From Verrucomicrobiota bacterium (GTDB taxonomy: Bacteria; Verrucomicrobiota; Verrucomicrobiia; Limisphaerales; UBA9464), in NCBI GenBank assembly GCA_025360495.1, contig JANYCC010000027.1, positions 1-46,045 on the forward strand: a stretch of DNA of 46,045 bases, in the 5' to 3' direction. Both the position numbers and the translations under genes were made by a program. Below are positions 41,577 to 46,045 of the stretch, piece after piece. Below the pieces are notes generated by a model, which was given only the letters and a program-made list of their open reading frames with translations, was not told the origin of the DNA and ran no database searches. Numbering within the stretch: position 1 is the stretch's first letter; the number at the start of each line of letters is the position of its first letter.

Positions 41577-42287
41577 CTACTGCTGCCGATTCAAGCGACG
41601 AGCCAAACCCAAGAGCACCGCCGCGCCCGCCAGCAGGGAAAAAGTGGAACCCGAATCCGGAATCGGGTTCCCCGGAGGAGTGATCGGCTTGTCAAAAACA
41701 CTGTGGTTGTCCGATTCAAATCCACTGGCAGTCACGTTCCCAAACACCACCCGGTCAATCTGGGAGCCCGCCGTGGTCGTGAAATCCAAGTAGGCGTAGT
41801 ATTCGCCCTTGTTCTCCCCGGTGACCGGGTTTCCCAGATAGGCCGACGACAGGAACGGAATGATGTCGCCGATGACATAGGAGCCCAAGAGCGCATTCGA
41901 AGGGTCATAGAAGTCCAGCTTGTTGGAGGCGTCGCCGGCACTCCACCACAGTCCGAAATAGGTCTTCGGGGCGGCAAACTGAAGTGTTTGGGAGACCGTG
42001 GTGCCCAATCCCACAACGTCGTACTGACCCGTCCCCCCGGCCCCGCCATATTGGTTGTGCGGGATGACCTGGCCTCCGCTGTACGTGCCGCCAATCGTCG
42101 GGGAAACGTAGGTCCCGATCACACCGAGGGGGACGGCATCAAATGTTTCCGTGGATGCCCCGGCAACCGTCGTCGCTTGAACCCCGGGGTTTTCAATCGT
42201 GAAAACGAGCCCGGCGCGAGCGGGTGCCAGACCCAACAGGCCTCCCGTTGCTGACAAGATCAGCAATCCTCTAAAAGGGTTCTTCAT
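41577..42287 (-). CDS. VPDSG-CTERM sorted exported protein
   Basis: A 236-residue protein with a signal peptide (MKNPFRGLLILSATGGLLGL, then APARAG) and a C-terminal sorting signal: IPDSGSTFSLL, a hydrophobic helix and a basic end RRLNRQQ. This is the verrucomicrobial relative of PEP-CTERM, processed by exosortase-type enzymes. No exosortase gene is in the window. The middle is beta-rich (FDAVPLGVIGTY, YFGLWWSAGDASNKLDFYD), like other secreted PEP-CTERM proteins. The start at 42287 is chosen for the signal peptide; upstream codons to 42449 are AT-rich and look like promoter DNA. Confidence 0.88.
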   Translation of the reverse strand: MKNPFRGLLILSATGGLLGLAPARAGLVFTIENPGVQATTVAGASTETFDAVPLGVIGTYVSPTIGGTYSGGQVIPHNQYGGAGGTGQYDVVGLGTTVSQTLQFAAPKTYFGLWWSAGDASNKLDFYDPSNALLGSYVIGDIIPFLSSAYLGNPVTGENKGEYYAYLDFTTTAGSQIDRVVFGNVTASGFESDNHSVFDKPITPPGNPIPDSGSTFSLLAGAAVLLGLARRLNRQQ

Positions 42288-42811
42288 GAGATGGAGCGTG
42301 ATGCTTTTGTGGTGCATGGATTGGTTATTGGCACAGAAAGCAACTGTCGTTCCATCCGACGCATGTATGATGTAACTAATTGATGTGTAAACTGATATGA
42401 ATTCAGTGGCAATGCGATCCGAAACACAGAGTGTTAACGAACCCGACAATTCTTCGGGGTTGATGAGACTTGTCCGGCGTGGAGCCTATATTTAACGTGT
42501 TCCAGCCAAAATGGTTGGGAAGCATGGGTGCGGGGACGAATCTTTTGACACCGGGAAATGCGGTCGGCAGCGCAGGAATCCGAGGCGACCACGCCAAGCC
42601 TTCCCGCCCGGGACGGAGACTTGCAAGCTGAGGGGGCGGGGAAGGTTGGGGGAGAGGACCCAAATCGGAGATTGGGTGGTAAGGGGTTTGTACAATCAGG
42701 CGTCACTTTCGCTTGCAGTCTGGCACGGGTCTGGCTTTTTAACCGGCCGGCGGTCCCCGCGTAACCCGTTGGGGCAGCCAAGTCAAAGTGATCGCCACAC
42801 TCAATAGCTCG
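42288..42811. other. Divergent intergenic region
   Basis: A 524-base region between the VPDSG-CTERM gene and the CBM48 gene. Its left part (42300-42420) is AT-rich compared with the rest of the window and probably holds the promoter of the exported protein. Its right part holds a sigma-54-type promoter. No protein-like frame is seen; the long minus frame across it is Pro/Arg-rich noise. Confidence 0.6.
42721..42735 (+). promoter_or_regulatory. Sigma-54 (-24/-12) promoter
   Basis: TGGCACG, four bases, then TGGC matches the TGGCACG-N4-TTGC consensus with one change, and the GG and GC dinucleotides have the required 10-base spacing. A T-run follows. A start near 42747 would place the CBM48 gene ATG about 65 bases downstream. 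Confidence 0.6.
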
Positions 42812-43126
42812 ATGCACGGATTGCGCCGCCCCCATCCTCCGCACCAACGACTGCAGGCCCGGAAGACGGTTCTGCCGGTCAACTTCATCTGTCTCGCCCC
42901 CCAAGCGGCGACAGTGCATCTCACCGGGGACTTCAACAGTTGGAACCGGACCTCCCACCCGATGAATCGTAGCTTCGACGGTTCCTGGCATCTTTCGGTG
43001 CCCCTCGGACATGGGGGACACCACTATCAGTTCCTGGTCGATGGCCTCCCCGTGAACGATCCACGGGCGCAGGGTCTTGCCCGTAATGCGCAGGGTGAAA
43101 AAGTCTCGATGATCCTGGTCAGTTGA
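42812..43126 (+). CDS. Small CBM48 glycogen-binding-domain protein
   Basis: A 104-residue protein that is almost entirely an AMPK/isoamylase-type carbohydrate-binding domain: NFICLAPQAATVHLTGDFNS, WNRTSHPMNR, DGSWHLSVPLGHGGHHYQFL and VDGLPVNDPRA. The aromatic and GDFNxW residues of the glycogen-binding family are present. No catalytic domain is attached. It may target glycogen or act as a regulatory adaptor. GTG 42788 is an alternative start. Its last 8 bases overlap the end of tadA on the other strand. A sigma-54-type promoter precedes it. Confidence 0.8.
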   Translation: MHGLRRPHPPHQRLQARKTVLPVNFICLAPQAATVHLTGDFNSWNRTSHPMNRSFDGSWHLSVPLGHGGHHYQFLVDGLPVNDPRAQGLARNAQGEKVSMILVS

Positions 43127-43694
43127 CCGGTCTCCCGGGCGGGAAAGGACCGGGATTTCCGGTTCGGTCGGACCCTCGACGGGCGCGCTGTTCAGCGAAG
43201 AAGGTGCGCAACAGGAGGCGTGATTCATCCCCCAGGACACCGGGCGTGATTTCGCACCGGTGGTTCAAGGTGGGGAATTGCAGCACGTTCATGGCTCCCC
43301 CTGCGGCTCCGGCTTTCACGTCGGGTGCTCCGAACACCACCCGCTCGCACCGGACGTGAACCATCGCCCCGGCACACATGGGGCAGGGTTCCTTGGTCAC
43401 AAACAACGTGCAGTCCGTCAGGCGCCAATCCCCGACCTGCTGTTGGGCCTGGGTCAACGCCAACATCTCGGCGTGTGCCGTCGCATCTTTCAACCGTTCC
43501 ACCTGGTTATGTGCCCGTGCGATGATCCGGCCACCCCGCACCACCACGCACCCGACTGGCACCTCGCCGTCCTGATAGGCCCGGACCGCCTGACGCAGGG
43601 CTTCCCCCATGAAGAACGAGTCGGAGCGTAGATCGATCACGGGACCTTCATCCGGGGGCACCGGGGATTCGGACTCGGAGTCGGGTGTTTTCAT
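43119..43694 (-). CDS. tadA: tRNA-specific adenosine deaminase
   Basis: A 191-residue zinc deaminase that converts wobble adenosine 34 to inosine in tRNA-Arg. The motifs are DGEVPVGCVVV, ATAHAEMLAL (zinc His and catalytic Glu at 74-76) and KEPCPMCAGAM (zinc cysteines at 104 and 107). The C-terminal FPTLNHRCEITPGVL and ESRLLLRTFFAEQR fit TadA. An acidic N-terminal extension of about 22 residues precedes the core. Its ATG overlaps the Nudix stop by four bases. Confidence 0.93.
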   Translation of the reverse strand: MKTPDSESESPVPPDEGPVIDLRSDSFFMGEALRQAVRAYQDGEVPVGCVVVRGGRIIARAHNQVERLKDATAHAEMLALTQAQQQVGDWRLTDCTLFVTKEPCPMCAGAMVHVRCERVVFGAPDVKAGAAGGAMNVLQFPTLNHRCEITPGVLGDESRLLLRTFFAEQRARRGSDRTGNPGPFPPGRPVN

Positions 43695-44254
43695 CGGGGT
43701 GCGGGCCGGGATTCCTCGAGCGACCAGTCGAAGTCACCGTCGGCCCGACAATGGCAATGAGCCGCGAAGAACCCGCCCCGGTGCTGCCAGAAAAGAGGCC
43801 AGATCTGGGTGCGGTCGGTTTCGGGCAACGGGAGGTCGTCCAATGCGGCGCGAGGCCAGAACCGGAATCTTCCCTCCCGATGGGGGGGAGGAACGGTGGT
43901 GAACCGGGGGACGACCTCAAAAAGAAACATCAACCAATGGGACTGCCCCAGATAACCGTGCTCGCTCACCAAACCGGTGAGTTTCAGGTCCGGCGCCGTC
44001 AACCGCACCCCGAGTTCCTCGGTGGCCTCCCGGCAGGCGCATGTGTACGGGGATTCGCCGATCTCCTGAAGCAGCTTACCGCCACAGGGGCTCCATAAAC
44101 CGCGGTTGGGTTGCCGGGTGCGCTCCAGCAGCAGGATCTCGTCCTGCCCGCTGAAACAATAGAGCAGGGTGGAGACTTGATACGGCAGCGACATGGGTGC
44201 GAAACGAATCACGCCGGTGCAGTCGGGGTCAAGAGACTCGCGACGCAGGGGCAT
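43691..44254 (-). CDS. Nudix hydrolase
   Basis: A 187-residue Nudix protein. The box reads GGKLLQEIGESPYTCACREATEELGV-like, with the REATEELGV half canonical and two extra residues between the leading Gly and the first Glu. The preceding ILLLERTRQPNRGLWSPCGG is a typical Nudix entry. The C-terminal region has FWPRAALDDLPLPETDR, as in NUDT1/MutT-like 8-oxo-dGTP or (d)NTP diphosphatases. A second start at 44194 (MSLPYQVSTLLYCF) is also plausible. It is translationally coupled to tadA. Confidence 0.85.
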   Translation of the reverse strand: MPLRRESLDPDCTGVIRFAPMSLPYQVSTLLYCFSGQDEILLLERTRQPNRGLWSPCGGKLLQEIGESPYTCACREATEELGVRLTAPDLKLTGLVSEHGYLGQSHWLMFLFEVVPRFTTVPPPHREGRFRFWPRAALDDLPLPETDRTQIWPLFWQHRGGFFAAHCHCRADGDFDWSLEESRPAPR

Positions 44255-44283
44255 GGATCCGGGTCAGGGCGTGAAATTGGGAA

Positions 44284-44313
44284 TTGACCTTGCAGCCGGT
44301 TTCTTGCTAATTA
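44284..44313 (+). promoter_or_regulatory. Sigma-70-like promoter
   Basis: TTGACC at 44284-44289 and TAATTA at 44308-44313 are separated by 18 bases. The -35 is near consensus and the -10 is AT-rich within GC-rich DNA. The start would lie near 44320, just before the 36-codon frame. Confidence 0.5.
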
Positions 44314-44326
44314 TGCGGAGTCCGAG

Positions 44327-44437
44327 ATGCAGAACCGCACCTCCATCATTGTAACCGCCCGCCATCAGTCGATGGCTGGCAACCTCTGTTTCTGGGTCAA
44401 ACCCGGAACAGTGGGCATCGTGGGGGTGACGGTCTAG
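44327..44437 (+). CDS. Possible 36-residue leader or small protein
   Basis: A short frame beginning ATG at 44327 with GGAG six bases upstream and ending TAG at 44437. The product starts MQNRTSIIVTARHQS and ends GTVGIVGVTV. It contains a GCCATC/GATGGC hairpin (44361-44376) in its RNA and is followed after 23 bases by a strong terminator. It may be a leader peptide, a small protein, or coincidental within a small RNA. The predicted transcript start leaves only a few bases before the ATG. Confidence 0.35.
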   Translation: MQNRTSIIVTARHQSMAGNLCFWVKPGTVGIVGVTV

Positions 44438-44460
44438 CAAACGGCGTCATCCAGTTTTTA

Positions 44461-44501
44461 GAAAACCCACGATTGCCCTGCAATCGTGGGTTTTCTTTTT
44501 T
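44461..44501 (+). terminator. Strong intrinsic terminator
   Basis: A perfect 15-base stem (GAAAACCCACGATTG with CAATCGTGGGTTTTC), loop CCCTG, then six T residues. It is the clearest rho-independent terminator in the window and separates the short transcription unit from the hypothetical gene at 44559. Confidence 0.92.
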
Positions 44502-44558
44502 CCGGGCCGGGCTGCCGGAACTCATCAGCCCCGACAGAACACCAAGAATCATCATCCC

Positions 44559-44900
44559 ATGAAGATACCTCCCTCGAATCCCGAGAATGAACGGGTGAAT
44601 CCCGGTCCGTTCGGCCGGGCACCCGAGCCCGCCAACCTGAATCGCTGGACGGCTGAGACTGAATTGGAAGCCCTGAAGAACCGGTTGTTGCGATCGGAAT
44701 TGCAATCGGCCGAACCCGGGCTGTTGGTGGCATTGCGCCGGGCGGCGAACGAGGCCGCATCGTTGGCGTGGTTGGAACCGCATCCGTTGCTGGTCTTCCC
44801 GACCCTGTTCGGTGAACTGGCCTTGCGGGCCGTCCGACGTCATCAAAAGCAAGGCAACGTGCGGACCCGTTCCGCAGCCTTCCTTCAGGAGGCCGCGTGA
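44559..44900 (+). CDS. Hypothetical helical protein
   Basis: A 113-residue protein I do not recognise. The first 30 residues are Pro/Asn-rich (PSNPENERVNPGPFGRAPEP), followed by helices: ETELEALKNRLLRSELQ, LLVALRRAANEAASLAWLE and LFGELALRAVRRHQK. There is no signal peptide. The amphipathic pattern and lack of antisense-type composition support a real gene. It lies after the strong terminator, so it must have its own promoter or depend on read-through. The function is unknown. Confidence 0.6.
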   Translation: MKIPPSNPENERVNPGPFGRAPEPANLNRWTAETELEALKNRLLRSELQSAEPGLLVALRRAANEAASLAWLEPHPLLVFPTLFGELALRAVRRHQKQGNVRTRSAAFLQEAA

Positions 44901-45015
44901 ACGCTGATGTTCCACGGATCAGCATCCGGTCGGGCGGGCGTGGCCGGGCGGGGATCGGTGCGGATCGCGTCGTGCACGCGGCCCGCACCGATCCCTGCCC
45001 CGGTGGGTGCGGAGG

Positions 45016-45531
45016 TCACCACAGCCGGATGCCCGACTCCTGTCTGATTGGATCGCGAAATGCCCGGGGCACAGGTGGCCCGCCGGAGCCGCGCAATGAA
45101 TCGGGGGCGGAGTAGTCCAGAACCTGCCGTGTCTCGAATGCCATCGCTGCGGGCTGTTCCGGCCTGGTCGTCGGCGCGAACGGGTTGATCAGGTCGGCCA
45201 GCGCGCGCCAAGACCGCTTTTTTTCGAGGTAGCGGCCCGCGGAACCCATCCTTTCCACCGAAATGGGAGGGTCTGTGGCCCGAAGCCCGGACTGGACGGA
45301 GTCTTGATTTTCCTTGGAGAGGTTGCCGGCCCGGAAATCCTGCCGGGCAAGATCCACCAGTGCTTCGGTGGCCGGTCGGGCGAGAAGGGATTGGTCCGGC
45401 CCCGGCGCAATTTCCAAGGTGCCGGCCGGCGGAGTTTTAGTTGGGGATGCACCGGATGCGCCGATTTCGGCCGCATGAGTGCCCAGTCCCACCACCAGGA
45501 CCGCGAGCGACAACTGCGACAACTTTCTCAT
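45016..45531 (-). CDS. Hypothetical exported protein
   Basis: A 171-residue protein with a signal peptide (MRKLSQLSLAVLVVGLGTHA, then AEIGAS) using the ATG at 45531. After a Pro/Thr/Ala-rich linker there is a short helical part (LVDLARQDFRAGNLSKENQD), a basic segment YLEKKRSWRALADLINPFAP and a Pro-rich tail. I know no matching family. It lies 13 bases after the metallo-hydrolase stop, so the two may be co-transcribed. Function unknown. Confidence 0.6.
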   Translation of the reverse strand: MRKLSQLSLAVLVVGLGTHAAEIGASGASPTKTPPAGTLEIAPGPDQSLLARPATEALVDLARQDFRAGNLSKENQDSVQSGLRATDPPISVERMGSAGRYLEKKRSWRALADLINPFAPTTRPEQPAAMAFETRQVLDYSAPDSLRGSGGPPVPRAFRDPIRQESGIRLW

Positions 45532-45544
45532 GGGTACCGTCCTT

Positions 45545-46045
45545 TCAACCAAACCAAGGGTTGTTTTCCTTTTCCTGCGCCACCGTCGTCAATGGGCCGT
45601 GACCAGGACAGATCAAGGTCTCCGGTGGCAGTGAGAATACTTGGTCCCGGATCTTCGACCGCGCAAGGTCCAGATGTTCGCGCGCGCCGCCGATCGAACC
45701 CGCAAAAACGGCATCGCCCACCATCGCCACAAAAGGCGCGTCGTCCGGCCAATTGCCCACGATATAGGTCACGCCGTCCTCGGCATGGCCGGGGGTTTCA
45801 CGGTTGGTGACGCGCAGGCTGCCGAGCATGATGAAATCGTTGGATCGAATACGCTGATCAACAGGTGCGTTGCGGCTGCCCGAGTGCACCCGGGCTTTGG
45901 GGAAACGCGCGCGTACGGGTGCCAGGGCTGCGACATGGTCACCGTGGGAATGGGTGATGAAAATGTGTTTCAGTTGGAGTTGCTCCGGTTCGAGCAGGGA
46001 CAGGATCGCCGACGCATCGAATCCCGTGTCGAACAACGCCGCCTC
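45545..46045 (-). CDS. MBL-fold metallo-hydrolase (partial, runs off the edge)
   Basis: The C-terminal 166 residues of a metallo-beta-lactamase-fold enzyme; the start lies beyond the window. The metal-binding THSHGDH motif is at ITHSHGDHVAAL, with a downstream His in TPGHAEDGVTYIVG, an Asp in MVGDAVFAGSIGG and a final His in ICPGHGPLTTVAQEKE. The upstream DTGFDAS motif is also present. This is the glyoxalase-II/hydroxyacylglutathione-hydrolase-like layout, but the substrate is unknown. Confidence 0.88.
   Translation of the reverse strand, partial: EAALFDTGFDASAILSLLEPEQLQLKHIFITHSHGDHVAALAPVRARFPKARVHSGSRNAPVDQRIRSNDFIMLGSLRVTNRETPGHAEDGVTYIVGNWPDDAPFVAMVGDAVFAGSIGGAREHLDLARSKIRDQVFSLPPETLICPGHGPLTTVAQEKENNPWFG

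Follow-up and report, generated by a model that had tools for sequence, protein, structure and literature searches.

A very probable ribosome-mediated transcription attenuator upstream of a conserved 113-residue protein gene in Limisphaerales

Transcription attenuators of the trp and his operons of Proteobacteria combine a translated short leader with a conditional intrinsic terminator and an antiterminator that shares the 5′ arm of that terminator. In the Escherichia coli trpL leader the control codons read Trp-Trp-Arg, and a single regulatory codon is expected in theory to give low sensitivity, according to one analysis (PMC1183508), while trp leaders of Actinobacteria carry double or triple UGG codons (PMC1262725). 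In the E. coli trp operon, a protector pairing additionally keeps expression off when translation is absent. The TnaC leader peptide of the E. coli tryptophanase operon ends in Pro. One Trp of TnaC is of importance (PMC8429421), and the tna operon is subject to Rho-dependent termination (PMC1262725). In the ToiL upstream open reading frame (uORF) of E. coli topAI and in antibiotic-sensing leaders, a short frame reports ribosome stalling (PMC12121999).

The locus described here occupies positions 44284 to 44501 (+ strand) of the window, by which we mean the entire 46,045-nucleotide stretch (positions 1 to 46,045, forward strand) of contig JANYCC010000027.1 of the Verrucomicrobiota bacterium assembly GCA_025360495.1. 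Based on conserved synteny, a conserved frame, and a covarying antiterminator, it is very probably a ribosome-mediated transcription attenuator for the gene of a 113-amino-acid (aa) protein at 44559 to 44900 (+). Like the trp and his attenuators, it has a short translatable leader frame, an intrinsic terminator between frame and gene, and an antiterminator sharing the terminator 5′ arm, and like trp attenuators it places Trp and then basic codons near the putative control position. It differs from the trp systems in having one Trp codon with no tandem or repeat, and in preceding not a tryptophan biosynthesis or Trp-tRNA synthetase gene, nor any other known Trp gene, but a family with no match in Pfam or NCBIfam; it also differs from trp and his attenuators in its predicted mRNA, which has nearly no 5′ untranslated leader. 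The leuA and ilvB leaders of Limisphaerales discussed below similarly end their frame just before a conditional terminator directly upstream of the gene, but several of them have Leu or Val codon runs, and the genes downstream are biosynthetic. ToiL is comparable in its short reporting frame but controls translation and Rho-dependent termination, unlike the intrinsic terminator here. The latter point also separates the locus from TnaC, with which it shares a single Trp in the leader peptide; a final Pro was found in only 1 of 80 related leaders. Ribosome-mediated switches are a well-known kind of control, yet an example common to many Verrucomicrobia seems to be undescribed so far, as full-text searches of open journal papers found no such leader for this group by title or opening of the abstract.

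Relatives of the locus were collected at the DNA and protein levels. A DNA search matched 15 of 58 genomes, mostly at the terminator only, and such matches are palindromic, so that their strand and meaning were ambiguous until the protein search. When 286 genomes of the class were searched, 31 proved to encode homologues of the 113-aa protein, and every one of these belongs to the same order, Limisphaerales. In named genome contigs, 96 relatives of the protein were confirmed and 80 kept; these are labelled Verrucomicrobia, Verrucomicrobiales, Limisphaerales, or Pedosphaera, with a few as Akkermansia or plain bacterium. The combined 111 loci, including a paralogue from the genome of the window, reduced to 98 unique loci, of which one had no upstream sequence, leaving 97. 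A terminator-scored hairpin lay upstream of the homologue gene in 85 of these, with those of L088 and L127 apparently unrelated to the rest, and a short ATG frame of 32 to 45 codons preceded the hairpin in 80 of the 85, against 7.8 ± 2.7 in shuffled leaders. In the 80 loci, the leader stop lies 15 to 28 nucleotides (nt) before the terminator, and the order promoter, frame, antiterminator element, terminator, and gene is kept. No hairpin of this type was found in the remaining 12 of the 97 unique loci, which count against the attenuator interpretation. Among them is the paralogue, L132 (G000:C401:34117-34326), through which the genome of the window has a further member of the 113-aa family, one that lacks the leader. 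L047 and L050, which are of the same genus, are also without it. L027 has no ATG frame; in the 314 nt before its terminator there is a GTG frame that stops inside the antiterminator element, unlike the other 80. A phylum-wide profile search returned the genome of the window alone (1 of 387), in a sample poor in members of the order and with few candidates scored, and so carries little weight.

The predicted promoter (44284 to 44313, +) consists of a −35 box TTGACC at 44284 to 44289 and a −10 box TAATTA at 44308 to 44313, separated by an 18-nt spacer. A −35/−10 pair had been noted in the first-pass annotation, and both boxes can be read directly from the sequence. The pair is weaker than its counterparts in related leaders, and a simple promoter scan of 43000 to 46045 listed no promoter, this pair included; the weight of the promoter call comes from the relatives. 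There, with the search confined to the region upstream of the chosen ATG and the best match taken, the −35 box matched TTGACA at all six positions in 71 of 80 leaders and at five in the other 9, with spacers of 16 to 18 nt. The −10 box ends 11 to 17 nt upstream of the ATG in 65 of the 80. As judged from its position, the mRNA should start about 5 to 10 nt upstream of the leader ATG, leaving almost no 5′ untranslated leader. The predicted transcript runs from about 44319 to 44501, near 180 nt. A ribosome-binding site had also been proposed in the first-pass annotation, and this proposal is not supported: the GGAG at 44316 to 44319 lies at or before the predicted transcription start and is probably outside the RNA, or only at its extreme end. 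The upstream neighbor is a NUDIX gene on the opposite strand.

The leader frame itself, 36 codons as previously proposed, extends from the ATG at 44327 to a TAG stop codon at 44435 to 44437 (+). Its pooled pN/pS across 21 independent pairs of relatives is 0.61 (95% interval, 0.50 to 0.73), compared with 1.03 and 0.86 in the shifted frames, so codon conservation indicates weak purifying selection; by this comparative measure the frame is translated and its peptide loosely constrained. Such selection is also what would be seen if the frame encoded a functional small protein, with the terminator as its ordinary end and the next gene served by its own promoter. We regard this as very unlikely, since the length (32 to 45 codons) and sequence of the peptide vary, the link to one downstream gene family is kept, and the compensatory complementarity described next would have no role.

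This complementarity involves element E (GGCATCGTGGG, 44414 to 44424, +), which falls among the frame's final codons, between 21 and 11 nt upstream of the stop, and which, apart from a single bulge, is complementary to 44466 to 44477 in the terminator 5′ arm. The terminator is formed by a 5′ arm (T1, 44460 to 44476, +), which doubles as the 3′ partner of E, and a 3′ arm (44480 to 44496) followed by a T-run, together 44480 to 44501 (+). The hairpin at 44460 to 44496 has 17 pairs and a 3-nt loop; a perfect terminator stem had been reported earlier, correctly except for its length, given as 15 bases.

Covariation between E and the terminator was assessed across the related leaders by permutations and shuffles that leave the relatedness of the leaders in place. 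Pairing of each E with its own arm in 80 leaders had a mean energy of −19.5 kcal/mol, compared with −17.3 ± 0.22 kcal/mol after permutation, and none of 20,000 permutations reached the observed value. With 60 of the 80 leaders aligned, 90% of the cells of the 11-pair E:T1 helix were paired, and 6 of the 11 pairs showed double changes (16 double-change cells). No shuffle out of 500 matched any of five measures, and helices slid along the alignment were 34 to 49% paired. Two loci with differing terminators, L029 and L045, have correspondingly differing E elements, and in each the locus's own E ranks first of 80. Of the 28 loci whose terminators are of rare types, 16 had their own E ranked in the top ten of 80 and 8 had it below 20th; these 8 loci weigh against the attenuator interpretation. 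Overall, the search for covariance in relatives that the first-pass annotation had called for shows E varying in concert with the terminator arm, and of the options it had offered for the unit, a leader-peptide attenuator is strongly supported by the synteny, the frame, and this antiterminator.

The position of E is such that a ribosome would mask it. A ribosome at a stop codon covers up to 12 nt downstream, according to PMC4833913; the terminator, 15 to 28 nt past the stop, would therefore be free with a ribosome there, while much of E, 21 to 11 nt before it, should be masked. In folds of the window's sequence, the antiterminator reaches −29.5 kcal/mol and the terminator hairpin −26.7 kcal/mol. 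Folds of the RNA ending with the 5′ arm, in which a ribosome occupied the Trp codon, had E paired with T1 in 72 of 77 leaders; with no ribosome, the antiterminator still formed in 63 of 77, these being equilibrium rather than kinetic folds. The off state would thus need translation. For a protector pairing between the frame start and E, like the one that holds E. coli trp off in the absence of translation, support is weak at best: z scores were −4.0 and −5.3 in ATG-anchored windows 0 and +6 but reached +3.9 in others, all of them open to inflation by relatedness, and E was paired upstream at above 0.5 in just 6 of 77 leaders.

We infer from this arrangement both termination and read-through, ribosome stalling, and, as the signal, Trp-tRNA shortage or translational slowing. 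In the proposed mechanism, RNA polymerase would produce an mRNA with hardly any 5′ untranslated leader, and translation of its 36-codon frame would begin immediately. If the frame is read to its stop, the ribosome would mask E, the terminator at 44460 to 44496 would fold, and transcription would stop near 44501. Should the ribosome be slowed or stopped upstream, likeliest at the Trp codon at 44393 to 44395 or just past it, E would be left free to pair with the terminator 5′ arm, and polymerase would continue into the 113-aa gene. The unit had earlier been described as a self-contained transcript of about 180 bases, which agrees with the predicted length but overlooks the probably conditional nature of the terminator.

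Beyond E and the terminator, the leader contains further predicted structure. An internal hairpin, as noted in the first reading, is present at 44361 to 44376 (+; GCCATC-AGTC-GATGGC, 6 bp with a loop of 4) by sequence and folding, and a second, CTGTTTCTGGGT-CAA-ACCCGGAACAG, which contains the Trp codon, is predicted on the same basis at 44386 to 44411 (+). A hairpin at a distance from the stop like that of the first gives a covariation signal over 77 leaders (windows −70/−52, z of −7.1), and a hairpin resembling the second is visible in the near relatives L051 and L052. Without the terminator, the leader folds at −64.4 kcal/mol (z of −4.9, with none of 200 shuffles equally low), and with it the folding z against shuffles is −8.1. 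In the 60-row leader alignment, 8 of the 12 predicted terminator pairs show double changes. No Rfam family matched in the window at gathering score, and no tRNA or tmRNA was found. At E values up to 10, the region 44240 to 44560 gave 12 weak Rfam matches, all below gathering scores; these were set aside as subthreshold, several of them lying on the terminator stem, on either strand.

These folding data bear on two further explanations. The strong fold and the near-180-nt terminated transcript would suit a stable small RNA acting in trans, as attenuator products can elsewhere (peTrpL, PMC7298713). This is highly improbable, given the missing Rfam family, the clustering of conserved positions in E, the frame, and the terminator, and the finding of no consensus helix besides the terminator in the 60-row alignment. 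A riboswitch or protein-binding leader that does not require translation would likewise account for a conditional terminator with hairpins; however, consensus folding recovers the terminator only and no conserved aptamer fold, and the frame is open in 80 of 85 loci and selected as protein, leaving this the most improbable of the explanations considered.

A covariance model was built from 57 of 77 leaders and run over the 286 genomes of the class. It gave 26 matches with E below 1e-14, many at loci also in its training set, and each of the 26 lies directly before a member of the 113-aa gene family. With all strong matches preceding the same gene family and with weak selection on the peptide, the small RNA and the small protein that had initially been entertained as functions of the unit are not needed. 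The next matches begin at 1e-10. Of these weaker matches, nine were inspected, taken from the stronger ones together with one from the window's own genome, and all nine directly precede genes reading as leuA or ilvB. Four of the nine were checked and matched NCBIfam models of 2-isopropylmalate synthase or acetolactate synthase; the input was limited to 200 residues, which kept the scores under the cut-offs. An ATG leader frame is present in six of the nine, several with Val runs or Leu-rich stretches (five Val each in L164 and L170), and the Leu codons of the leuA leaders lie at a distance from the stop similar to that of the Trp codon. These Limisphaerales leuA/ilvB leader attenuators are L163 to L171 (genomes G173, G322, G078, G151, G297, G200, G000, and G256); in the ilvB-type leader from the genome of the window (G000:C474:682-792), Val and Leu are merely scattered. 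Model matches at E of 0.001 or less occurred in 88 genomes, 50 of which do not belong to the order, and the matches in those 50 may be ordinary terminators.

With respect to the signal, the candidate control codon is the single Trp of the window's leader (44393 to 44395, +), codon 23 of the frame and 14 codons before the stop. In 63 of 77 leaders an in-frame Trp, typically the only one, stands 12 to 19 codons ahead of the stop, and the other 14 have none in this zone; 54 Trp codons in the 77 leaders lie 14 to 16 codons before the stop. TGG falls in the zone in frame in 64 of 77 leaders, compared with 14 and 8 in the other two frames. A heuristic scan that took the one strongest hairpin per region around trpE and trpS in 10 genomes found no comparable leader. 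Because Trp is missing in 14 of 77 leaders, a single codon should be of low sensitivity, and trp leaders elsewhere carry double or triple UGG, we rate Trp-tRNA shortage as main signal a plausible candidate that falls somewhat short of even chances; slow or failed translation in general takes most of the remaining weight.

The same attenuator might alternatively respond to a ribosome-targeting drug or to nascent-peptide arrest, with the conserved Trp as part of an arrest peptide. The single conserved Trp with no codon run is compatible with such a signal, its absence from the zone in 14 of 77 leaders fits a general stall sensor, and known uORFs sense many translation stresses, ToiL among them (PMC12121999). 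We nonetheless consider this rather unlikely, as the peptide before the stall zone is highly variable apart from Trp, unlike what nascent-chain arrest requires, and the 113-aa gene resembles no resistance family in the scanned libraries.

The gene placed under this putative attenuator starts 58 nt past the T-run region. Scans of homologues of its 113-aa product against Pfam, NCBIfam, and PHROGs gave no family match, and no phage or plasmid relatives of the protein were found. A structure model predicts three helices (mean pLDDT of 84.7, with residues 1 to 27 unreliable). The best hit of a profile search of solved structures had an E value of 0.045, which we take as chance; Foldseek gave a best E of 1.4, and a second structure comparison gave a best Z of 7.4, inside the noise stated for helical models. 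In loci with flanking sequence (e.g., L040, L073, and L037), a divergent Ser/Thr protein kinase gene lies upstream on the other strand in 37, a CitMHS_2-type transporter gene downstream on the same strand in 16, and, again downstream but on the opposite strand, a gene for an EPSP-synthase-fold enzyme in 11; none of the three adjoins the window's copy. Elsewhere in the window, a small glycogen-binding (CBM48/AMPK-type) domain protein is encoded at 42788 to 43126 (+), beside a tRNA-adenosine-deaminase-like gene at 43119 to 43694 (−), and the protein of the frame at 41577 to 42449 (−) ends in what we take to be a VPDSG/PEP-CTERM-like sorting tail.

Together with the leuA and ilvB leaders, these observations suggest that ribosome-mediated attenuation is an ordinary form of control in a branch of Verrucomicrobia with few laboratory strains. 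If the locus is read as an attenuator, a previously unexplained 180-nt unit becomes a switch open to testing, and a conserved protein family that has no named relatives in the scanned libraries gains a first functional hint, namely, that the protein is probably made when translation falters. A broader reading, which we put forward tentatively and as less likely than not, is that the leader is an order-wide translation sensor: because equilibrium folding sets up the antiterminator in 63 of 77 leaders when no ribosome reaches the stop, the gene would be silent only for as long as ribosomes complete the leader, and failure of any kind, whether from Trp-tRNA shortage, a drug, or absent initiation, would switch it on. 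If that is true, the three-helix protein would be a new Limisphaerales factor in the ribosome or starvation response.
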